Of a DNA stretch of 64,000 nucleotides, positions 19,465-41,865 are shown one piece after another. Where the stretch lies: contig NC_037590.1 in the NCBI RefSeq assembly GCF_003073045.1, positions 29,724,449-29,788,448 of the forward strand, in the 5' to 3' direction. The notes under the pieces are model-generated. The model was not told where the DNA came from and made no database searches. It worked only from the letters and a program-made list of their open reading frames with translations. Each line of letters begins with the position of its first letter. The first letter of the stretch is position 1. Source of the DNA: Pomacea canaliculata. Its lineage: Eukaryota > Mollusca > Gastropoda > Architaenioglossa > Ampullariidae. The translations under genes were made by a program, and so were the position numbers.

Positions 19465-22400
19465 CTAGAAAGCAGTGTAATTAGGGTTGGCCATGCTGCC
19501 CATGGTGTTACTTGTTAAATTTCCACCGTAGCCACCACCATCCATGTAGCTATTATTCATCCCTGTAACAGAAATAACATTTCAACCCACTTTGCACATA
19601 TCACAAAATCCTGCAATTTCCAAGAAATGAAATGTCACAACTCTTAAGGTCAGAAATTAAAAAATTAAAACAAATTGTTCTATAGAGATACTTGCCTCCG
19701 CCGTAGCCTCCACCACTTCCCATACTGCCACCCATTCCATAGCCTCCACCACTGCCACTGCTGTTGCTGCTGAACTGACCCCCGTTGAAACCCCCTTGGT
19801 TGCCATAGCCTCCACCAGCACCACTTCCCATTCCATAACCACCGCCACTGTTGCTGCTAGCTCCATAGCCTCCTCCACCACCAAAACTGCCACTTCCACC
19901 ACCCATGTTGCCACTGCTAAATCCACCACCCATGTCGCTGCCATAGTTTCCCATGTCAGAACCTCCACGAGTTGGTGTGGAATTCAGGAATAATTCAATG
20001 TATCGATGCTCTGAGAGGAAAAAGTAAAGATTAGAGTACTAAGGATTTTTAAAAATTATTGCTACAGAATACATTTATCATAACTTTTATCATCACTTTT
20101 GTGCATCACACAATGTGTATTTTATGTCAAAATATGCAAATCTGGTGTTGTCTGATACTGGACCATGAGACATTGCTGTATTCTGGAAGCTGCCTTCCCA
20201 CTTCGGGAAGAGGGAAGGGGGAAGGGGGTTGAAAGTCTAGATTCAAGGTATTTTGAGGCTTGAGTTGATAACTGTAATGTGACAACTCACGCATGTTCGA
20301 TCGGTGTTTCTTCATGGCTTCTAAGGCTTCCTGGTGAGTAGCAAAATCCACATTGGCCTCACCCGTACGACGACCGTCAGAGCCATATTCAAACTCCACC
20401 CTTACTGGCTGGATTGGTGCAAAGAACTACCAAAAAAATCAGCGCTTTAAAAAATAAACTGTCCAACAGTAGACCGAAAGTTTATAAATATATAACATTA
20501 CTCACAATAAATAGTGTTCAATAAAGAACTTCAATCTGCACCTTAAGTAAACTTACATGACATGCAGCTTGAGCTTAGAAGCATTGTAAGGGTGAGATGT
20601 CTAAAAATTATTGGTACTAGAATGAAGAAGGCATGTGGCAGAAATCTTTAATGCAAGAAACAACCCTAACCCTCCCAATGAATACTATGGCTGACTGTAA
20701 CTCAAACTCATGAAAACCATTTTTTAATAATCTGAAAACAATGGGAAAACTGTCTAGAATTCTACTTACATCGAAGACATCCTGCTCTATGGCAAGAAAT
20801 GGCATACCACGCATATGAACTGAGTGGCCTGTCTTGCTGATATAATGACTTCCTGGATGTCCCATGCGTGGTCGTTCATCTATCATCATGCGACCTCGAG
20901 GTGGCCGCATTCCCCCACGACCCCTTTGGCCCATGTAACCCATTCCACCAAATCCCATATTGTAATCGTCAAATTCGTCATCATAATATCCTGGAAAAGT
21001 AACAGATCATAATTTTTTTTACAAAATGAGATAGCAAGGAGAAAATAATAATACTTTATTTGTCCCAGAGGGCAATTCTGTTGCAGCTCATTTAAAATTA
21101 AAATTCATACACAACTGCATGCACAAAACTGCAAAAATGTATGCCAGATTTGTAAATGTACTGAAAAGGACCACCAGATCTGAACTGATGAAAAATGATA
21201 AATTACTGTTTAAAAAATAAAAATCTTTTGTTTGCTTTTGATGCCAAATGCCCATGGGTTTACTAAATACACAAAGAACGCCTTGTAATAAGTTTTAAAC
21301 ATTTTATTTAGACCCCACATTTAGGTATATCGCTGTACCAAAGAAATGATCCAGAGGATTTGTTTCATGAAGTAACAGTTCTTTTTAAAAAATGATGCCA
21401 ACAATAAGCAAATCTAAAAAGTTAAAATCCATAAATTCAAACTTTAAAACAAGTTTTTATAAGTTTCTCAATTTTGTAACAACTATTTTTTTATACTTTA
21501 TGATTACCTTTGAGATTTCTTCCTCCTCGACCTCTGTTGAAACCCATACCCATTGGGCCACCCATTCCCATGCCAGGTCCAATTGGACCACCAAACCTGT
21601 CATTGCGATCATAGGGGCTGGGTCGACCAATCCCCATGCCGGGACCCATAGGAGGCCTGAAGCCACCACGTTGATTACCAAACACTGCATTAGCCTCTGA
21701 CATGCTGCTCTTGAAAATTTCTATGTACCTGAAAAATTTGATGGGGATAGTCAATGACCGTTTTAAGATCATGCTGCCACTACCTCTATTTTTGGCAATG
21801 CAAGAAAAAGGAGAGAAAATATAACAAATAACAAATAGATAACAAATCCACTGATTCAATCCCCTACTTTTTTTTTTAAAAAAAAGCCTTTCTCTCCCTC
21901 TAACTAAAGCTCACAACACAACCTCTCCTATTATTAAATCAATTTCTGTGGACTCCTCACAGCACAAATAAAAATAATAATAAAAGGGGCACATGGCACA
22001 CAAAATAGGAAAAAATTAACAGTAACATTAACTATGTGACGTCACACATCTTCTGAACACAAAATATACAATCACAAAAATGTCAGCTAAAGAAGTGAGA
22101 GAGCATAGCAACAAGGCTAGCACTTTCATCCAATTCTCATACAACAGGCCTCTTTTCTTTCTTTATACTAATATTTAAGTTGTTCAGATATCACATGCTT
22201 TCCACAAAGCTGCTCAAAGATTCAGTCAGCACAAGCATTTTATGTCCACCTTACCATTGTGAAAGTTCATAGAGACGTTGCACCACAAATTTTGAAGTTG
22301 TCACCAGTACCTGTCTTCGTTTTGTTTCTAGTTTCTTCAAAGGCATTAGAATACTGAACAGATGTATGTAGCTGATCAAGGAGGAATTGACTCAAGAGGC

Positions 22401-25265
22401 TGTTCACTAACAGCTTGTTATAAGACCATCGTTTTTGTTTTTTTTGTTTTATAATTACCAATAAATAATGGGGAGAGAAAGAAAAGTAGCTGTCTACCCC
22501 CTATGACCCCCACACACCCCCATACACCCACCACTCTCCCCGCAGCAAATAAGAAACAACAAGTACGGCTCTGTGCCCCATCAGGCCCAGCCATCCCACC
22601 TGTGCCCTATGCGCTCCTTGTGTTTACCCAGGGCCTTTTCTGCTATCTCCTGGGATGCGAACTGTACAAACGCCTCCCCTGTGCTGCGCCCCAGCCGATC
22701 CTCTGGTAGCATTATCCCATTGGGTACAATCTCGAACCCTACATACCCACCCAACAAACAGAGTCAAACAGTCAGCACCCAATGGTTAAAGTAGACAGCC
22801 TGCAAGTACAGCATCCATATCAAATCCAAACTCCCATTTTAAAGTCTTCCCCTAATGCATATATAATTCTGTGTAACTACAGAAACAACCTTTTCTTTTC
22901 TATTTATAAGGCTTGTTTTTATAGATTAAAGTTCAGGTTGTCACTGCTATGTTAACTGACATGGGTTGCCTTTTCAACAATATCCATTAGTAACCAAGGG
23001 ACACAAAATAATTTCCTAGGACCACTGTTATGAAGCAAGGGTAAGTTGTTTTTTTCCAGGAAAACATGGAAAGCTCCATGGCAATTACCTTGTCTCCATA
23101 GCTGTAGTGTTGATTCCTCCATTTTTGCACTGGGGCAACAACTGACCTTCACTTCCAAACTAAAGCCCCTAAATTATTTAAAAAGCTTTTACCTAACACT
23201 ATAAGGTAGAGGAAAAAATATATGACTTAGTTTCTTTGATTCTTCACCATTCACTTTTTTTAATGGCTACTTTTAATAGATTAATCTGCAACTTAGTCAT
23301 AGGATTCTAGACTTCTTAGAAGACTAAATATACACACATTAAAGTGCATAACAAGATTATAATTCTTAGTGCTTGGGTGACAGACTCCATCGATAGGTTA
23401 AAAAATGTGGTTCTGCAACACTCTTTCCTTGTCACTTCAGAGGGCAAAGAAACAGCAATACAATCTTGTATAAAGTCTATTGACACAATGTTCTGGCTAT
23501 ATACTAAGTGATATAAGATGGAGTGGATTTAATGACTTTAACTCAGGTTTTCACATAAAGATACACCACTTCTGCATCCTCTTTAAATCCATATTTCAAC
23601 ATTCTGACCCTCTTATGTGTATGCTAAAACCAAAATTTCATTAAAAAAAGAAATATCATAGTTGCAAAACGTTTTGCAGATTTTATTGCTTGTGCTCCAG
23701 AGAAGACTATTTGAAATTTTAGAGTATTCAATACTGATATTATTTAGCCCTTTGTAGACAAATGTCCAAACTAAAAAATTTCACAGGATTTTTTAAAATA
23801 AATGTTTGATGTATTTAATATATTTATAGCATCTGAAAGACACATTACAAACGTGAAAATGCATCTGTTAACTAAACTTTTTTCAACACCCTCAATATAA
23901 AATATCTTAAGATTAGAATACTGATGCATTAAAAGGGGAAGGACAATTTAAACTGAATTAAGCATAATAATTGCCACACAGTCTTAATACTCTTTTTAAA
24001 AAACATATTTTCTAAAATCTGTAGATAATTGTTTTATTACTTTTCATTGCTTTAAAGGATGCAATAATTTCTTTCTCAATTGCCTTTGTTGGTATGTCAG
24101 AAAATTCAGTTTTGCAAATTACTTCAACAAATTCTGATGCAAACTTTACATCTAAACTTTTATTTTCAATGTCTAATATTCACAAACATCATACTACGCA
24201 AACTCAAGAGTATATTTAATGGTATTATGAATCTGACAAAGCAGGAGGGAAAATCATTTAAAAGAGCTGAACTTTTAAAATTTCCTCCCCCTCCCGCATA
24301 CACACACATGTACAAGTTTTATTTACATCACAGCAAATAATTTTCTCAATGCCTATTCACACAAACAAACAAATAAAAAGCACATGCACAGATAGAAACA
24401 TCACTATATATATATAAATTTAAATTTATTAATCTGACACTTTTTCTCGAAAATTGATGTTTTAACATTATATTTAAAACTACAAGAAGCAATGTTGCTT
24501 GAATTTTAATTTTTAATAAAAATGAAAAATGAAAATTTTTTTCACCACAGCTATACATCATACTATTTCACTTAAAACACAGCTATTTAAGGAGTATACC
24601 TGTAAAGAACTGAGCAATCTCTTCTTTGGAACAGCCAAAAGGAAGACCACGTAATTTGACAACTGCTTCACTCATGTTGGGAGAGTCCAAACCAGCACGT
24701 TTGATGACCCACTCCATTTCACCTTTCTTTGACCGAAATACTGCCAACAAACAGAAAGGCTCATTAGTCTATCCTTCAACTTTATCCCATTGCTAGCAAG
24801 ATTCTACCTTCCCAATTCCTTTGCCATTGCTAAAGGGAATCAGAATTTTTCCGCTTCCTTGTATCTGCTGTTAAGATTAAAATAATTCACACCCCATGGC
24901 TCTGACAGATCAAGTGGGCAAAATGGCACATGGTGATTATTGTGCTAGTTCTTAGCAGCAATAAAGTAGATAAGGCAGCAAAAAAAGTAAATACAAAATT
25001 AGGTAATATTAACAGAAATAATGGTTTAACTCATTTATGCCTGATATTCCATTATTGGAACATTATAAATATTTGTTCTCTTCAAATTCTTGTTCCTTAA
25101 ATATCTATAAATCACATTCATGAATTTCATGCACAAATTAAAAAAATGTCAACATTTGGCATAAATGGGTTAAAGGAAAACTGGTAATAACAACAGCTTA
25201 TTTAATGTGCAATGGAAAGAAATAAAAACACTAATGTGAATTATGATGACATTCTGAAGAATGCT

Positions 25266-25302
<37 letters not shown>

Positions 25303-26793
25303 TACATTTTAAGAGCTGTTGGTAAGCAACAAAATATTTTATGCTGTGAATTCAAAACATATGAAGCTCTCATGAAGGGACAGTTTTTGGTAAAACAAAC
25401 GATGTGCCCACATTGCAGTTTTACAACATTTGTCAATTTAATTTACACTTGCATAACAGCATCTTCAACACAGCATTAAAAAGGACTGTTTTGTAAGTCT
25501 GCCCTCTCTTTAGCAAAATTTTATGTCACCGATTATGAGTAAATAAACCCACCTTCAATATATCGTTGTCCTAAGTGTTCTTTATTTTTTTTTAGTGCTG
25601 CCTGTACATCATCTTCTGAAACAAACTCAACAAATGCTTCTCCGCTGGGGCGTCCTTCTCGGGAATATGTAAGATGGACTCCATTTACTCCTTCATTTAT
25701 TTCACAACCTGTAAAGTGTTGAAATCAAACAATTTAAAAAGGGGCCAGTGATAAATATGCAGAAAATGTTTTAAAGGCCGAACTTTTAGCACACAGCAGG
25801 AGAGTTCAACCCAAAAGAGGGACGTAAGGAGCATATGCTGTGCTGGCGACCTGAGTGGTTATTCTTTCCCAATTGCTTCCATCTAACCTGACAAGCATCC
25901 TGATCTCCCTGTGCCAGATTGAATCCTTCCTTTTCTGTTGGACTAAGAAAGTTTAGCCTTAAAGCTACAAACGAAGTTAAAAAGGAAATTGTAATTTTTA
26001 AGTGAAGTGGGTGGGTCATAACTTACAAAGACAACTAGATAAAACCTATACAACCTTCTTTTATTTTTTAAAAAACTCCATCATGACGCCATTAACAAAA
26101 CAGATATCAGGATAGTGGATGATTGCATTTATCTTTGAAAGCCTTAGCCAATAGGACATCTGGGAACAACTGTTAATTAGGCATGTAGTGATTTTGACTT
26201 CTTTCTGAGCATGGTGATGTTTGTAGGATTACATCTCAAAAACAAGATTAGCCAAGATTTGGGGAAGTAGTACCATGCACTGAGCTTTACCCAATTTTTC
26301 TTTTTTTATTCATTAGAAAATAAAATGCTGCAGCCAATAATCCTCTAAATAACACTTAAAGGATTCAAATAGTTTATCAAATAGTTAACCTATTTTCTGC
26401 AACTTTTGAGATTAATTTCGTATTTTAACCAGTTTAGCTGGCAATATTTTTGGTACCAGGATATGATGAGGCACATTGCTGCATATAAAAAGTACATAAT
26501 CTCCTTAGCATTAGTGCTTTTGGGATCCAAAATTTTATTAATGTTTTATCTTGAATAATGGGGTAACATAATTTGACCTCAGACGCAGTGTTGAGCTTGA
26601 GTACCCTTATAGATGGTGTTCTGATTTTGTACACACTAATAACATTTGAAAACTATAGCTAATCTTAAATAAGTCTCAATAAGAGTGTACATCAAAAATA
26701 CACATTTTCACCATCAAAAAACTTTTCCACGTCTTCTGGAGTTGCTGACCAGGGAAGACCTCTTAAACGCACTACAAAGCCTTCCTCACCCAT
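19465..26793 (-). CDS. hnRNP H/F-family RNA-binding protein, copy A (complete, 9 coding exons)
   Basis: hnRNP H/F proteins bind G-runs with three quasi-RRMs and control splicing and poly(A) choice in the nucleus. Minus-strand coding exons: 26793-26712, 25708-25553, 24740-24600, 22738-22600, 21728-21508, 20990-20770, 20426-20291, 20010-19696, 19562-19465; phases agree, 502 residues. Seen: [26 protein letters not shown] opens qRRM1 (~4-80); [20 protein letters not shown] and [13 protein letters not shown] form qRRM2 (~102-180); a Gly/Arg/Met linker; VHMRGMPF and [20 protein letters not shown] form qRRM3 (~295-372); then a Gly/Ser/Tyr-rich tail. The start Met lies 3 nt after the acceptor. Exon 8 ends in a GC donor. 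Exon 4 was converted with copy B. Orthologous to vertebrate HNRNPH/F and fly glorund as a group. Confidence 0.95.
22525..22818. repeat. Near-identical segment shared with hnRNP copy B (conversion tract, copy A side)
   Basis: Exon 4 (22600-22738) with about 75 bp of flank on each side matches 36863-37160. By eye, from the left end to about 22790, there are five substitutions and one 4-bp length change. Four substitutions fall within ~30 bp of exon and all are synonymous. The match decays after the AATGG near 22785 and ends abruptly outside the tract. Neighbouring exons 3 and 5 differ at many silent sites and the introns do not align. Confidence 0.9.
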
Positions 26794-31564: not shown

Positions 31565-34500
31565 TCAGAATGAGGAGTAATTTGAGTTACTCATCCCCCC
31601 CATGCTGCTTGACGACAAGCTGCCGTATCCACCACCACTATCCATGTAGCTACTGCTCATCCCTGTAACAAAACATAAAATTTTACAGTTTAAAATTTAA
31701 AACACTAAGTTCTTTACATGCAAAGTATTTAATATCGTGCAACAACAAAAACCTTGGAAGTCTTAACTCTACAGTATCCATAAAAAAAGGTTAAATGTTT
31801 GAATTTTTCTGGTGTATAGTGCATATGTATGTGCACCAGCAAAGTATTTAAAATATTGCAGTCATAACCACAATTCATATTACTTTTACAGACCTTACAA
31901 AACCTGAAAGTTCAACTTCAATACCAAGTTAAAAAATTTCTTACATGTGCCAGTCTTAAATATAAGTTAAAAACCATATTTCAGACCATTTTACCACTAA
32001 GATAGCTAATCTGAAATCACTCCAAAGAATGAAATCCTGGTATGGTGATTAAGTGGTTGCAGAGGCAACAAACCAACAATAATGATAGACTTAAAAACTA
32101 ACATCACTGGAGTAACAGCTGAAAAAACCATGCAATTTGTGTCGCTTCTGATAAAAGGCCAAAGACTATAGAAAACCAGTAAGCTACTGGAAAAAGAAGA
32201 GAAATATCATGTTATCTGTTTGTCAGCATTGGTAAGTTGGCATGAAGAGAATAGTTATACCAGAAGGAATTCACTGACTGGCTGTTACTTTCACAACAGT
32301 AATCAATATAAATCTCAGAAATGTTAACTACTTCGGTCAATCAATAAAACACACAAGAAAAAGAATAGATAACAAGAAACAAACCCCTATAAAGACAAAG
32401 TTTCAAAAAATCTCATTGTGAGGATTTCCCAGAATAATTTAGGCTAATCTAAAAAAAAAGGTACACAGGTCTGATGCTTTATTGAAAATGTAGGAATAAG
32501 GTTTTTGTACTGTATGACAAGCAAATAATTTATCTTTAAAGCTTAAGTATTTCTGGTAGTTCTTACCTCGTCCTCCATAGCCACTTCCGATGTTTCCACC
32601 CATGCTGGAATTCAAGTTGCCATTCATGCTACTGCCACCCATGCCATATCCTCCCCCCATGCCACCACTGCTGTACTGCTGGCCTGGGCTGCTGCCATAG
32701 CTGCTACCCTGGCTGCTGCCAAATCCACCAAGGCTGCTGCTTCCACCCCCCATACCATAGCCCCCTCCACCTAAGCTGCTGTTGTTACTGTTGCCCCCTC
32801 CATAGCCTCCACTTCCACCATAGCTACCTCCTCCCCCTCCTAAGCTTCCACTGCTAAAGCTGCCACCCCCCATGTCGCTGTTATAGCCACCTCCCTCAGA
32901 TCCACCACGAGTCTGGGGAGTGGAGTTGAGGAAAAGTTCAATGTAACGGTGCTCTGAAACAGAATGGGTTTAGAATTTAGTGAAAAAATTATCAAAAACT
33001 TAGTTCTACTCTAACAGATATGTTTGCTGAATTCCCAGAATTTTAAGTTTTCTGGCCAATACTAACAGGGCACTACTGTATTTCTACTTTGCAACAGGAC
33101 TAATTATAATGTTCTTTTGAACTGTGAACTGTTTGGATCTATTGGATGGGTTCCATTCCGCCATGTATCACTTGCTTTGGCAGCAACCTTGAGCTGCATT
33201 GAATAAACTGACATGATGATCACTCTTTTGCAGTTTTATAAAACATTTCTTCATATTCTCAAAATTACTCAATATCTTCCCAGTATTCTCCTTGATGTCA
33301 CTAACCTTTTTTTCTGGAGTCATTACCATTAAATCTAGCTGGAGTTGTTACTGTTAAATCTAGTGATCACCCTTTACTGCGGGAACACAGTGAGTCCTGT
33401 TTTTTTGTTCTACATTTCTGTTTTGTTTTTTGTCAACTTGTTTTACATCTTTGTAACTATTTAGTGATCTTGTTCAGTGCAACGAGTCCACCTTTGGTTG
33501 AGATATTGCACTTTATAAATTCCCATTATTATTTCTTCCAAAGTCTTCAACCTCACCAGACTGAGTTGTTTCTTTTCTGCAATGAAGCATTTTCTTAAGG
33601 TGAGGAGTGACTTGAGAAAATAGCAGTTTTGGGGTGACCTAATCAAATCTGAGGTCACAAATTTTAATACTTATATATATGGTTTACAAGTGTTATTTTT
33701 TAACATGTTTTGATGCTTAATTCATTTTTCATACCTGCCATCACTGATACTGAAAATGACTTTTGTTTTAAAGTTGTTACTTGTATCCCGAGGTCACCAT
33801 AGTCTATATTTCTCTCCGAACAGCTGAGACACACTTCCACTGGCATAATAAGCAGAGCTTTGTAATGCTCTCATCTTCTGACAACCAGGTAACTTTATGT
33901 CATTACACTTCTGACACCTTTGAGCCACTAATAGTTTGCACTTCTCACTTTTATATTTTTATCTGCAAAATATGTGGCAAATTCTTTGATTTTCCAATTA
34001 TTTTTTTTTTGCCTTGCATGGACATCGTTACAAGCATGAATAAAAAAGTCTAAGCAGTTCTTTAGAAGCAAATAATTCAGCCTCACGCATGTTAGATCTG
34101 TGTTTCTTCATAGCCTCCAAAGCTTCTTGGTGAGTAGCAAAGTCCACATTTGCTTCGCCTGTAAGACGTCCATTTGGTCCAAACTCAAAGCTGACCCTAA
34201 CTGGCTGGATAGGGGAAAAGAACTGAAGCAAAAATATTTATTTACTGGCATCAGAATACTTTTTGATAGGCAACATTCAGTACTTATTTTGGGGAAATAA
34301 CATGAAAATCAATCCATCCTAAAAATAACACAGAACAAGAATAAAAATCTTAATATACAACTTTTGATACAAATCCTGTCCACAAAACCCATTCCCTCTA
34401 CACAAAAAAATTTATTGATTAAAGACTGTGTGTACTGTACTGATTGGGGGGGGGGAGGGAGAGGAAAAAACCTGCAACATTAGCAACTTAATGATCAAAA

Positions 34501-37500
34501 TGCATGAATTGATCAAAATATTTGGTGGTCTTTAAATGCAGATGGTACTCCTTGGTGCACATTAGTTCACACTTTGGATGCTGTCACCATACTCGAAAAA
34601 CTGGTTTGGATGTCAAGCAGGCCTTCCAATCAAACTTACATCAAATATGTCTTGTTCACCAGCCTGGAAAGGAAGACCTCTCATGTGGACCGAGTGGCCT
34701 GTCTTGCTCATGTAATGGCTTCCTGGGGCACCACCTCTACCTCTGTCATCCATCATACCTCCTGACATGCGCCCTCGTGAACTGCCACGCCCACGGCCTC
34801 CAAATCCCATCCCGTAGCCTCCATTATAATCATTAAAATCATCATCAAAGTAGCCTGAAAAAAGAGAGAGAGAAAAATCAGTGGCACGTTAAAAAAAAAC
34901 AAAACAAAAACACTACACAAAAAGGCACAAAGACGTATTTACACTATCTCCAAAGCTGCCTAATGATAATAAACAGAGAATTTTTCTACAGATTAGATTA
35001 CCATTAAAGTTCTGCTGTCACAAATCCCACTGAAGCCGAAATTAAATGACTTGATCATTCCAGATTTTCTACTCCAATCTTTAGAATTGCCTTATTAGCC
35101 CTTACAGCCTATGAGCCACAATTGTGGCTTTGCTGGGGAAGAATGGGGAAGGCAATTTTCATTACTTTTAATGCAAAGTTCAAGCTTTCTCCTATCCAAA
35201 AATGTATAGTTTTGGGGGTCTAATATTTACCTGAAAGCAGCAATAGTAAAAACCAAAGTCAACCATTTTCATCTTCATTTTTTGACCATTGTCTTTGTAA
35301 TACTTAAATCCAGTGCTATGAAGGTTAAAGAGAGAATTTTGCTACAGCACAGATTACCTTTCAAGTTTCTGCTTCCACGACCCCTGTTGAAGCCCGCACC
35401 CATTGGGCCTCCCATGCCAGCACCACCTGGACTGCTGTATCTGTCATGCCGGTCATAAGGCCCTGGTCGACCCATGCCCATTTGAGGTCTGAAGCTTCCC
35501 CTCTGACTTCCTACCACTGCAGTGGCCTCACCCAAGCTGCTCTTAAAAATTTCTATGTATCTGTGGATAACATGAAACGGAGATGAGTGCTGACATTTTT
35601 TTATTTAAACTTTAAAAAGCACAGAAGAATCCATTTCATTAATCTGTGAATTCTACAGTCTCAAACCATTATGGAACTTACCAGGATACATAAGCAAGAC
35701 CTTGCTATGTTGGTGTGGAGTTATTCCAAGTATTCTTCCCACCATGTCTCACCACAATTTATTTACTAGTTATATTTTATTACTAAATGATTTTAAAGGG
35801 CTGCACTGCCGCCTTTCAACATTTCCATTCATGAAACACCTGCATCAATGCCTCATGACTTAGCATCTGTGCCAGAAAACAACTTCTCAATTTATAAATA
35901 TGTATATCAAATTATTATCTCAATAAAGAAAAAAATTTAATTGCAGTAAAGAAAGATTTGGAAGGCTGCAGTTTTTAATCCCTACCCTCGTTTTCCCTTT
36001 TCCAAATATTCTGGAAATTATACCTTTTACAAAAAAAAAAAAAGTAGCACAAGATCCTAGATGTCAAATTCTGCTAATTTACTCACCCAACCAAATTAAA
36101 CAAGGAAAAAAAAAAACCAACAACAAAAAGCATGCATATTCTGTTTCCCTCTTTTTAACCCTTGACTCTTAATAGGTAATACAGATGGAGAAAGAGAGAG
36201 AAAGAGAAAAAGAAAAGCTAAAAGGCACAAGCAAATCTTACCTAAACCTAGAAACAGACGATCAAGGGGAGGGTGATGAGATTGTAAGGTCACTAAAATC
36301 CAAACAACTTCAGCAGCTATCACTGCTCCATTAACAGTTAATCCCTAAATGCCAACTCCCCCACCCCTAATCACCACACAGAAACCATCCAAACCAGTTT
36401 GCAAAAAGTTAGCTAGTTTCCCCCTTCATGCAAAAGCTATTTAAGTGAGCCCATCCATACCAGTTTAAAAACATACCAACTTCCAAAAGATTAGCCAGCC
36501 CCATCAAACCAGTAAAGATTAGGAAAAGTCCCCCCCCCCATTTGCCTCAAACAAAACGAAAAGATTTTTTCAACCTACTTATTTCACCTGTTACAGCAAC
36601 TATACCACTGTAAGGTGGTAAGTCTTAAGTAAAATTTAGCCCAAGATAATTTGGAGACTGTTGTACAGGCTGTACATAATATCTGGTGATGATTGGGCTC
36701 ATTAAAATTGACTACCCCAATTACACTTAATACTTTTGAACTACATACTTTCCCTATGCCACAGAAGAAATTCCATGACATGTAATATGAAGTGAACACA
36801 ACAGTGCAAAACAGTATTAGGTAGTCGCAGAAGCAAACTCAGGCATGGTCACAATATCTGACCACCCACCACTCTCCCCGCAGCAAATAAGAAACAACAA
36901 GTACGGCTCTGTGCCCCATCAGGCCCAGCCATCCCACCTGTGCCCTATGCGCTCCTTGTGTTTACCCAGGGCCTTTTCTGCTATCTCCTGGGAAGCGAAT
37001 TGTACGAACGCCTCCCCCGTGCTGCGCCCCAGCCGATCCTCTGGTAGCATTATCCCATTGGGTACAATCTCGAACCCTACATGCCCACCCAACAAAAACA
37101 CAGAGTCAAACAGTCAGCACCCAATGGTAATGGCAGGAACTCTGCAAGCACAGCATCCATGACTTATCCCAAAAAACATATTTAAACATTTGCTACAAAA
37201 AACATCACCTAGCCTTTTCTTATAATGCCAACAGAAGATATTCCTCTCTTATCTTTCATTAATGGACTTTAGAAACAACCCCACATAAGATGGAGGATCT
37301 TTATTTTACTAGCACTTGCTTGAACTAATTTGTTAAAAGTATCTTTAAATTCTTTGCATAACTGTGATCTAATTTCATGATATATAACTAAAAGTAAACT
37401 TTCTGTACTATATGCTACACCAAAAGTTCAGGACATATATGCTAATATATTTAAAGTTTTGCAAAATGTGTTGTCTACTTACTACAACACTAAACAATGC

Positions 37501-39909
37501 ACAGGCATATCTTACCACCGTATTAAATTGGTTTTAGATGGTACAAATATGCTAGCTTACATTTGAGAAGTAAAACCAACCCCGTTTTACTTGATGAAAT
37601 AAATATTTTAAAAAATCAATGCCAATCAGATGATACTACCTGAGAAAAACTGTGCTATTTCCTCTTTGGAACAGCCAAATGGTAGTCCACGTAGCTTGAC
37701 CACTGCCTCACTCATGTTATGAATCTGATCTGATCCTGCTCGCTTAATCACCCATTCCATCTCACTCTTCTTAGATCGGAACACTGACAGAGAAAGAAAG
37801 ATTTAAGGAACTATTCTACTGCTCCATGTCTGTCCATTTTGTAAATAATATCAACAAAAACCGTTCCATAAAAATACAAACCGATGTGTTGGCAGGATGT
37901 TGCACAGGGTTGATGCCAAGCAACTACATAATCTTAAGGACCTAAATGATAGCACTTAATGCCTGCGTTTCAAAACTATAGCTCGTTGGCCATTTAGTTG
38001 TTGGTGCTTAAAGCCATGTCAGCAACAGAGGCTATACAATGGCCTTCATAAATGGATTTAATACTTTGTTGACGGAAGGACTGCATGATTAATGTAACAA
38101 CTTGTTTGTCAGACCTACATTAGAACAAAATCTAAATGTAAGGACTATCGAGGTCTCTCAAAACCTTGTTTATAAATGAACTTGTATTACACGAGGTTAC
38201 ATGATCTTAGTGCAACAATTTTCCATGGTCTAATGAAGAAACAGCATTGTAAATAAGCATGAATAGTTACTAAATTTTTTTAAATGTTTTTAAAGAAAGA
38301 TATTCTGCAAGTTGTTCCCGTCACAACAGAAAAAAAAGTAATTTTATAATGTTTTTGAAAATGCAATGAACATGCTTATGGTACAGATTTTACCATAAAT
38401 GTTTGTGGCATGTTTAGACATACAGTAATTGTACTTCTTTTTCTATCAAAGATCATGCAGGATCCAGGTGTTCTCTGTTGAGCAGCACCAACAAAAAACT
38501 AAAAGAAAATCTGAGAAATGAAAAGGAAGAAACTCTTATACCCAATAGCAGATATGCACCCTGCAAGGACATAAATGTGTGCAACAGCACAATGTTTTAA
38601 GGTGTGGGGTGGGGTTGTGAAAGATATTTTTGACAGAAATTTATGGCCAATAGTTTGACTTTTCCTTTGCTTTCATACTTAAAAATTGACCATTCATTGA
38701 TGACTATTCTGTGTTTTCAGACTTTTAAAAACATCGAAACACTACCTAAATTCATGCAAGTCTACCACTCATGCGAACTTTTCCTTAAAAAAATCTTTTA
38801 AAATGCACAACGGTGCGAAAAGATCTTCCCTTAGCTCTTTTATATTTACTAATATTAGTAATAATAAATGAATTTGTACAGTGCATTTCTCTGAATTTGT
38901 ACAAGACAGACAAATGAACTGGTCAACTATACAGCGTGAAAATGAAGGATAGACAATTTCAAAACATCAAACATAGTTTGATTCCATGGAGTTTAATTGT
39001 CTAGAATCATAGGAAGCAAAGTATTCTTGGTTTTTCCCTTCTTATGTTAAATGTGATCCAATTTACTTGCTGACAAAATACTGCATGCATGAAGCAGTGC
39101 ATGCGCATGCTGTTTCGTTACTTTTTAATGTGGCTGTAGCAAACAGGCAGAAGAGAGATGTAGTAAATGACAAGGCCCAGTCATTTGGTAGGTTCAATAA
39201 CTGAATAAAGGCTGCTAAAAAAATGCATGATTATGTAAACAAAAGCCTACATTTCAAGCAGCATTATTCCACTGTCAGAATGATGGCTTCGTAATTTTGT
39301 ATAAGATACTTTAAAAAAGTAAAAGCTTAATAACTGTTAATATTTTATTTCATAAAGCACAAAAAAAGCCACCTTCTATGTATCTCTGTCCCATATGCTC
39401 ATTGTGCTTCTCCAGGCCTCTTTCCAGGTCTTCTTCAGAAGCAAACTCAACAAAAGCTTCTCCACTGGCTCGCCCTTCTCTGGAGAAAGTCAGGTGCACT
39501 CCAGCTTCACCCCCAGCAATCTCACTCTCTGAAAATCAGAAGCCACCGCCACTAACAAGTTTGTTATATGAAGCTTGAGAAACAAGATCTTCTCCCTCCA
39601 TCTTTTATTTGCTAACATCGATGAGACAGAACTCTGCTCCCTCACCTCTGGTTTGCACCCAACAATTATACATAAACGAAGGGGCCATGATTGAATGTTA
39701 ACTGCATTTACTCATACATTAATAAAAGCATAGCAAAAATTAGTATAAACATGAACATCATCCCTCTTTGAAATCTCTTCATATTCTTTCTCTTTCACAA
39801 CTGTGTGTTGACACTTACTATTAAAAAATTTAATGATGTCACTAGGAGTTGCAGACCATGGCAATCCCCTTAAGCGGCACACAAACCCATCCATTTCTTC
39901 GTCAGACAT
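31565..39909 (-). CDS. hnRNP H/F-family RNA-binding protein, copy B (complete, 9 coding exons)
   Basis: Tandem paralogue of copy A, same role. Minus-strand coding exons: 39909-39819, 39528-39373, 37783-37640, 37076-36938, 35560-35358, 34854-34640, 34222-34087, 32953-32567, 31662-31565; phases agree, 522 residues. Exons 2, 4, 7 and 9 have exactly the lengths of copy A's, and every intron phase matches. Seen: [29 protein letters not shown] (qRRM1), [19 protein letters not shown] and [13 protein letters not shown] (qRRM2), a GRGRG/Met linker, [17 protein letters not shown] with [20 protein letters not shown] (qRRM3), and a longer Gly/Ser/Tyr tail. The start codon directly follows its acceptor. 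Exon 8 ends in an ordinary GTAAGA donor, unlike copy A. Exon 2 could start 2 nt later at a second AG, but only 39528 keeps frame. Confidence 0.95.
33120..33400. repeat. Old interspersed repeat, copy 2 (partner at 13620-13950)
   Basis: Same orientation and same ordered blocks as the copy in MICU1 intron 8: GAACTG, ATCTA, CAGC, TTGAG, TCATATTCT, GATGTCA, TCTGGAGTC, CCATTAAATCTA. More weakly, 33800-33945 holds AGCTGAGAC and AATAGTTTGCACTTCT, also found near 13890-13930, so the element may be longer and interrupted. It lies in the intron between exons 7 and 8 of copy B. Confidence 0.5.
36863..37160. repeat. Near-identical segment shared with hnRNP copy A (conversion tract, copy B side)
   Basis: Contains exon 4 of copy B (36938-37076) and intronic flanks. 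It matches 22525-22818 except for a handful of changes; its exon encodes the same residues as copy A's exon 4. By eye it is much richer in G and C than the flanking introns of either gene. Confidence 0.9.
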
Positions 39910-40384: not shown

Positions 40385-40640
40385 ATGCCTCGAGAATGTG
40401 CTGCACCCGATTGCCACGAAAAGATGGAAAAAGATTCAAAATTGTCTTTTCATCAGTTTCCGAAAGACAGCCTTACAAGCCTTACAAACAGAGTGCGTCA
40501 TACGAATAAAAAGACGACGAGAAATCTTCGCAATGACCAAAGACACTTTCTGTGCGTGTGACGTCATAAGGAGACTGACATCACAAGGAGACTCGTCTGC
40601 TTCACCATCTCGGGAAGATATAGTGGTTACTCAGCAGAAG
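40385..40640 (+). pseudogene. Broken THAP-type zinc-finger relic
   Basis: From the ATG at 40385 the sequence reads MPRECAAPDCHEKMEKDSKL then SFHQFPKD, a good match to the start of a THAP domain (Met-Pro, C-x4-C, SFHxFPKD). The expected continuation (VIRIKRRREIF..TKDTF) appears in the next reading frame from about 40480, so a frameshift separates the halves, and the terminal C-x2-H is not intact. It lies in the 5' UTR intron of hnRNP copy B, on the opposite strand. It could come from a P-element-like transposon or a host THAP gene. Confidence 0.6.
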
Positions 40641-40904: not shown

Positions 40905-41240
40905 AATTCACATTATTGTTAAACTCCTATAAAGCCTCAAGGTCCAGACAATATTGATGAATACTGAAAGAGTTGAGTGAAGAGCTGTCCATTTTATTCC
41001 ACTCAGCAAGTCTCTGGAATCAGGTGATCTACCAAAAGAATGGCAGAGTCAACAGCTGTATTTAAGAAAGGCTCTAAATCTGATTCTGGCAATTACAGAT
41101 CAGTAAATCTGACATGCACTGTTTGTAAAATTTGAGAGAGTGTGGTCAGAGATGCTTTTGTTAAACATTTCTTAAATAAAATTAATTGTACATGGAATGT
41201 CGGCATAGTTTCAAGAACATCTTGCAAGAGTATTGTATAC
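40905..41240 (+). mobile_element. Decayed LINE reverse-transcriptase fragment
   Basis: The plus strand gives, in interrupted frames, KPQGPDNI, then AVFKKGSKSDSGNYRSVNLT and CTVCKI-ESVVRDAFVKHFLNK. This is the KKG..NYRPVSLT block of non-LTR reverse transcriptases. Several stops are present. It lies in the 5' UTR intron of hnRNP copy B, antisense to the gene. Confidence 0.75.
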
Positions 41241-41865
41241 CGGTAAATTGCTGTTAACAAAAATAATCCTACCATCTACTGACAGAGAAATAAAAAGGTA
41301 AATATTTATATAAGCATAAACTTATAAAACGTCAGAAAACATGGGTGAAGACTCTAATTATTGAAATATAGTTCACTCGCCTCTCTTGAAATAACTATGT
41401 CATAACTACAAATGTACAACAATCATACATGAGGACATAAATTGCAGAAACAAATCTACGATTAATAGTATAAACAAATAAGGAAAAAAACAATAATTAT
41501 TATATATTTGTGAAAGCATGTTAACTTCACAAAATGTAGAAAGGAACACTTTGTGGACACAGAACAGATACAATTTCATAGTGTCAAATAAATATTACGT
41601 TGTTGTATGCTGTAAGATATAAAATCGCCCGTTTTCATTATTTCTTCCCTCCTCTTACATCGAAACAGACCTCATGCATTGTCTTCCTCGTTGAAATCAT
41701 TGCCTTGGCCTTAGGCTAAATATGATCGATGATAAAACTCGTAAAAATGATTAGTCTGGCGTGATCACCATTAAAACTAATTGTCTTAAGAACAGTGGTA
41801 TTCCCTAAAGGACATTAATAATAAACTACAATGTAAAACTAAACACAGAAACAATATAAACTTAC

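Follow-up and report, generated by a model that had tools for sequence, protein, structure and literature searches.

Unproductive splicing of exon 4 of human HNRNPH1 has been reported (Pararajalingam et al., 2020, as cited in PMC13001508 and PMC11100220). Skipping of this exon shifts the reading frame and leads to NMD, and in MCF7 cells under cycloheximide the exon-4-skipped product was indicated to be an NMD target (PMC13001508). The NMD isoform of HNRNPH1 tracks the expression of HNRNPH2, which was interpreted as cross-regulation (PMC13001508), and in mantle cell lymphoma mutations at a single HNRNPH1 exon are described as favouring the form that escapes NMD, with loss of self-regulation (PMC11100220). 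The hnRNP H protein prefers G-rich RNA (PMC12324280; PMC10350819), and at exon 7 of AKR1A1 an HNRNPH site in the downstream intron promoted inclusion (PMC13001508). Among other splicing regulators, PTB and its paralogue nPTB are cross-regulated via exon skipping and NMD (PMC1940037).

Here, we describe two hnRNP H genes, A and B, which form a head-to-tail tandem in the gastropod Pomacea canaliculata. They lie in a window of 64,000 nucleotides, which is the whole stretch of DNA analysed (bases 29724449-29788448 of contig C1, in a genome of 440,159,624 bases in 24 contigs). Both are encoded on the minus strand, with the same order of exons and open frames (Table 1); their splice sites and frames were set manually on the DNA sequence alone, using its translation in three frames. 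The best match of residues 1-198 of gene B among solved structures is to the qRRMs of hnRNP H/F (6dhs, hnRNP H, 6.4e-72, RRM1-2, phmmer). Pfam RRM_1 stretches number two in A and three in B, and the two proteins can be aligned throughout, Gly-rich tails included; A and B both show the three qRRM domains with Gly-rich linkers by which members of the hnRNP H/F family are recognized. In gene A the donor of exon 8 is apparently of the GC type (19688-19695, GCAAGTAT); the corresponding site in B reads GTAAGAAC. A plus-strand open frame of 58 aa (40385-40561), located upstream of coding exon 1 of gene B, yields a Pfam match to the THAP domain (24.2 bits vs a cut-off of 23.9, E=6e-5) and is perhaps a domesticated or decayed piece of a transposon. 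A broken translation at about 40930-41290, also on the plus strand, resembles by eye a fragment of a LINE-type reverse transcriptase. No tRNA was found in the window, and Rfam at gathering scores gave no match to an intronic non-coding RNA between 18000 and 42500.

Table 1. Positions in the window of the two hnRNP H genes and of the elements around their fourth coding exon.
Feature	Positions	Strand	Remarks
hnRNP H gene A, coding exons 1-9	19465..26793	minus	502 aa; hand model; RRM by Pfam
hnRNP H gene B, coding exons 1-9	31565..39909	minus	522 aa; hand model; Pfam; structure match
Exon 4 of A, end of qRRM2	22600..22738	minus	139 nt; predicted stop 8 nt past exon 3-5 junction if skipped
Exon 4 of B	36938..37076	minus	139 nt; 4 silent differences vs A
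Intron 4 of A, first 75 nt	22525..22599	minus	identical to B; five G-runs
Intron 4 of B, first 75 nt	36863..36937	minus	identical to A; five G-runs
Intron 3 of A, last 47 nt	22739..22785	minus	near-identical acceptor region; GGGTGGG just before AG
Intron 3 of B, last 51 nt	37077..37127	minus	vs A: one substitution and 4 extra nt
Upstream conserved block, intron 3 of A	22801..22819	minus	17/19 with B; 15-nt spacer to core in both genes
Upstream conserved block, intron 3 of B	37143..37161	minus	counterpart of 22801..22819 in A

Exon 4 and its immediate flanks form an island of near-identity between the two genes. In its core (22525-22785 in A, 36863-37127 in B), 256 of 265 columns are identical, or 256 of 261 (98%) when a 4-nt gap is set aside, and the exon itself differs at four positions. 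The near-identity of exon 4 reported in the initial annotation is thus borne out; the figure of about 98% given there for 22525-22818 holds for the core, whereas the whole interval reaches 280 of 298 columns (94%). Of the 75 bp or so of shared intron announced for each side, the downstream part is present in full (75/75) and ends abruptly, with 25, 25, 25 and then 5 identities per 25-nt bin, whereas the upstream part is near-identical over only 47 nt of A (46/51 columns, with one substitution and one 4-nt gap). Beyond the upstream edge, a diverged spacer of 15 nt (7/15) is followed by a block conserved at 17/19 positions, in register in A and B. Being patchy and yet in register, this block is not the kind of trace expected from one clean conversion tract. 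It reads up to TTGCAG, about 60-66 nt upstream of exon 4 and above the likely branch points, and might serve as an alternative acceptor or as a further binding site. Just past the other edge of the tract (22489-22524), A alone carries three five-G runs beside TG-like repeats that B does not have; if conversion occurred, these runs may hint at A as the donor. Elsewhere the introns do not align, as had been noted before: best local scores are 150 and 99 for the flanks of exon 4 but 14-27 for the 16 flanks that belong to the eight remaining exons.

Silent divergence between A and B, compared exon by exon, is not equal along the genes, and identity forms a sharp plateau at exon 4. It amounts to 0.17 in this exon and to at least 1.2 in each of the others, mostly saturated, so that the silent divergence first remarked in the neighbouring exons extends to every other exon. 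Fourfold-degenerate sites differ at 2/22 positions in exon 4 vs 96/150 in the other eight exons pooled, and the silent difference of 0.152 in exon 4 compares with a minimum of 0.497 among the 354 windows of 46 codons that exclude it. At shared degenerate residues, the same codon is used in 41 of 46 cases in exon 4 vs 137 of 304 elsewhere (P=7e-9). The few exon differences are, as first described, silent and clustered, all four being confined to nine consecutive codons (P=0.013); a fifth silent difference affects the last base of the Arg codon that is split across exons 4 and 5. The cluster would fit an unconverted patch in a mosaic tract, or a less constrained stretch. The pattern by which a conversion tract is recognized, high local identity set in strongly diverged sequence, is therefore present.

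The length of exon 4 is not a multiple of three, so its skipping would shift the frame in both genes. The transcript predicted to result would meet a stop codon 8 nt beyond the new junction, 885 nt (A) or 933 nt (B) ahead of the last one; in both genes exon 4 thus combines a frame-shifting length with a predicted early stop far upstream of the last junction. In these respects, the snail exon looks like the frame-shifting exon skipped by human HNRNPH1. We take its boundaries to be the same as those of human HNRNPH1 exon 4, and the encoded protein differs from the human one at 6 of 47 residues.

A further property of exon 4 is its richness in G-runs (GGG or longer). Its codons, including one shared with exon 3, contain six G-runs vs 1.25 expected under synonymous shuffling with the genes' own codon usage, and none of 5000 shuffles reaches six in either A or B, two copies that are not independent of each other; the other 16 exon tests gave P values of at least 0.026. 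Five of the runs lie strictly inside the exon. GGG accounts for 4/5 of the whole Gly codons in exon 4, compared with 19/202 in the remaining exons of the two genes (P=0.0006). Another five G-runs occur within the first 75 nt of intron 4; the rest of the intron DNA of A and B averages 0.445 runs per 75 nt, and only 0.09% of its 75-nt windows hold five or more. Judged from this excess, putative motifs of the encoded protein are present in exon 4 and at the start of intron 4. In the last 47 nt of intron 3, GGGTGGG sits between the pyrimidines and the AG, a plausible spot for hnRNP H to compete with recognition of the acceptor. As the downstream-intron site of AKR1A1 promotes inclusion, the G-runs of intron 4 could enhance inclusion of exon 4 rather than its skipping; by this analogy, those of intron 4 may favour inclusion and those of exon 4 and intron 3 skipping.

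The island is GC-rich, as the initial annotation had observed, with a GC content of 0.56-0.57 in exon 4 and 0.59 in the first 75 nt of intron 4, against an intron background of 0.33. This had been attributed to repeated GC-biased conversion. Biased conversion acts equally on both strands and should raise G and C alike, but at the fourfold sites of exon 4 of A, compared with the remaining exons of both genes, only G is enriched (9/22 vs 45/421, P=0.0004), and C keeps its usual frequency (5/22 vs 89/421, P=0.79). The start of intron 4 likewise contains 33 G and 11 C, an excess above other introns (P=0.009). We therefore reject GC-biased conversion: the GC-richness of the island is a G-run effect, made up mostly of G.

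Ectopic gene conversion between tandem paralogues is a recognized process, and the initial annotation had proposed a recent event of this kind in preference to selection, with the inclusion of intron sequence as its other argument. Ectopic conversion is in our view, too, the most likely origin of the overall near-identity, given that outside exon 4 silent divergence is close to saturated or fully so and that the island ends sharply on its downstream side. Neither of the arguments brought forward for it holds, however. The flanks of a likely regulated exon carry clustered G-runs here, and constraint on intron sequence is expected in such a place. Selection without any conversion, in the form of an ultraconserved-like autoregulatory element that both genes have retained ever since they were duplicated, is accordingly a possibility to be weighed. 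In human, skipping of the exon with which the island coincides is regulated (PMC13001508), and genes of RNA-binding proteins are known to hold ultraconserved stretches (PMC4379411). The in-register, patchy similarity upstream also fits selection. In the core, whose edges were set by identity in a way that biases the comparison, intron positions are less diverged than silent sites (1/122 vs 4/33, Fisher P=0.0075), a result that speaks against a single conversion followed by simple neutral decay; when the tract is extended to the upstream block, this contrast is gone (11/156 vs 4/33, P=0.30). At the same time, selection alone would need about 80% or more of the exon 4 silent sites to be frozen (4-5 of 33 differ) while the others are near saturation, and for many bases of the island, even given selection on the G-runs, no obvious constraint is apparent. 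A 19-nt hnRNP H siRNA target printed in PMC3606458, human by context, aligns with exon 4 at 16/19 positions; three of its six codons differ silently from the snail, and none of the six differs between A and B. Small as this sample is, it indicates that these exon 4 silent sites change over time and are not frozen across animals. Unproductive splicing is moreover reported to have turned over among SR paralogues rather than remaining constant (PMC4379411). On balance, we consider selection alone rather unlikely.

The protein sequence speaks weakly for conversion. At residues that differ from human, A and B agree in 6/6 cases in exon 4 vs 35/65 in the rest of RRM1-2 (P=0.036; 181 of 182 columns, one gap column being dropped). 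About three A-B differences would be expected among those six residues, and the probability of finding none is 0.047; with exon 3 alone as the baseline (16/21 in agreement), the contrast is not significant (P=0.56). Folding of the tract RNA was no better than that of shuffled sequences (z -0.08 and -1.09), and we do not claim that a conserved RNA structure lies behind the intron identity. A 9-bp Watson-Crick helix between intron 3 and exon 4, across the acceptor, gave P values of 0.03 (A) and 0.05 (B), uncorrected, with 200 shuffles and among 18 comparisons.

Conversion alone, that is a recent and possibly mosaic ectopic event that struck exon 4 without any special role of this exon, would explain the sharp plateau, the abrupt downstream edge and the gap in silent divergence, as well as the clustered differences if they are the unconverted patch of a mosaic tract. 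It would, however, require a chance strike on one of nine exons, the one that is likely autoregulatory, and it leaves both the excess of G-runs at silent sites and the upstream block unexplained; its GC-biased version is contradicted by the missing excess of C. We regard conversion alone as quite improbable. Among the matches listed for a literature search, covering titles and the starts of abstracts, with subscription literature mostly outside, there was no report of paralogue conversion in hnRNP H exon 4. The matches listed on unproductive splicing or poison exons in splicing-factor paralogues did not contain the term 'gene conversion'.

The restriction of the shared sequence to exon 4 and its edges could also be expected if exon 4 had been duplicated from one gene into the other, where it replaced a lost exon. 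No remnant of an older exon 4 is present in introns 3 and 4 of either gene, where scores do not exceed those of 30 shuffles each, and the upstream block is in register in both genes. Furthermore, the island DNA searched against the 440-Mb genome of the snail itself finds two places, genes A and B, and neither this search nor one with the exon 4 peptide reveals a further near copy. The peptide matches eight places, two of which are exon 4 itself at 100% identity. Identity is 43-53% at the remaining six, namely exon 2 of each gene and four places on contig C12, and these paralogous matches were rejected as outgroups because they are too distant. The qRRM-like places on C12 (G000:C12:4214971-4215954 and G000:C12:7125424-7129079) comprise two with the same open-frame length of 1467 aa and two elsewhere on the contig, and they perhaps belong to RBM12-like and to ESRP- or GRSF1-like genes. 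In prokaryote genome contigs (137 pattern matches), viral contigs (7) and plasmids (0), no match encodes a relative. A copying of exon 4 from one gene into the other is very hard to sustain. An artefact of assembly or polishing is still harder to credit. The assembly (440.1 Mb, 14 chromosomes) was built from long reads followed by short-read correction (PMC6129957), a step that could blur a few differences between near-identical stretches. The window, however, contains no N, and the copies of the island are 14.3 kb apart, with dissimilar outer flanks; they still differ by four exon positions, a single intron substitution and a 4-nt gap. As short reads are not expected to map between sequences this divergent, polishing would not be expected to produce the island.

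We favour a joint action of selection and conversion, to which we give a probability of about 0.5: exon 4 would be a conserved exon for autoregulation, and its core, held under constraint, would have stayed similar enough for ectopic conversion to occur. When hnRNP H is abundant, it would bind its own pre-mRNA at the G-runs of exon 4 and its surroundings and shift splicing towards skipping; we infer both this binding and the direction of its effect on the exon. Loss of the 139 nt would create a stop immediately after the exon 3-5 junction, and the mRNA would be destroyed by NMD. With the element kept in both tandem genes, both would respond to one pool of protein and could thus regulate each other. 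Selection would maintain the G-runs and the splice signals, and after the drift of the introns and of neighbouring silent sites the island would be the only stretch alike enough to pair. At least one ectopic conversion after the duplication would then have homogenized the remainder of it. Exon 4 was probably singled out because it is the feedback exon of this gene family, and conversion most likely accounts for the rest of the identity beyond the selected G-runs and splice signals. It is also tempting to suggest, if only tentatively, that the exon 4 switch predates the split between molluscs and vertebrates, and that gene conversion which recopies only the regulatory exon couples both genes to one loop.

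If this is correct, the skip-to-NMD switch of HNRNPH1 that is reported to be altered in mantle cell lymphoma (PMC11100220) would be far older than the vertebrates. The tandem pair would then be a natural test of what the element needs, through the positions that survive in both copies amid near-saturated silent drift. More generally, the presence of intron sequence inside an island of paralogue identity is no proof of conversion by itself if the exon may be regulated.

Compared with the described systems, the snail locus shares with human HNRNPH1 exon 4 the gene family and an exon whose loss leads to a frameshift, a premature stop and NMD, as predicted in the snail; unlike in human, the element is common to two tandem genes, and in the snail the skipping is a prediction from DNA. 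As in the ultraconserved unproductive-splicing elements of SR and other splicing-factor genes (PMC4379411), an exon and its flanking intron are almost unchanged in the gene of a splicing regulator; those elements, however, are known from conservation between species, whereas the snail island is conserved between paralogues in one genome, and its exon 4, which the coding sequence needs, would be skipped and is not a poison exon that becomes included. With ectopic conversion in tandem genes it has in common a short island of near-identity that spans one exon with adjoining intron sequence on both sides and breaks off abruptly at one edge, but the island is restricted to a stretch that also bears signs of selection. 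PTB and nPTB, between which we know of no gene conversion, are paralogous splicing regulators that are reportedly tuned through skipping of a homologous exon, and the arrangement that we propose for the two snail genes resembles theirs in both respects.
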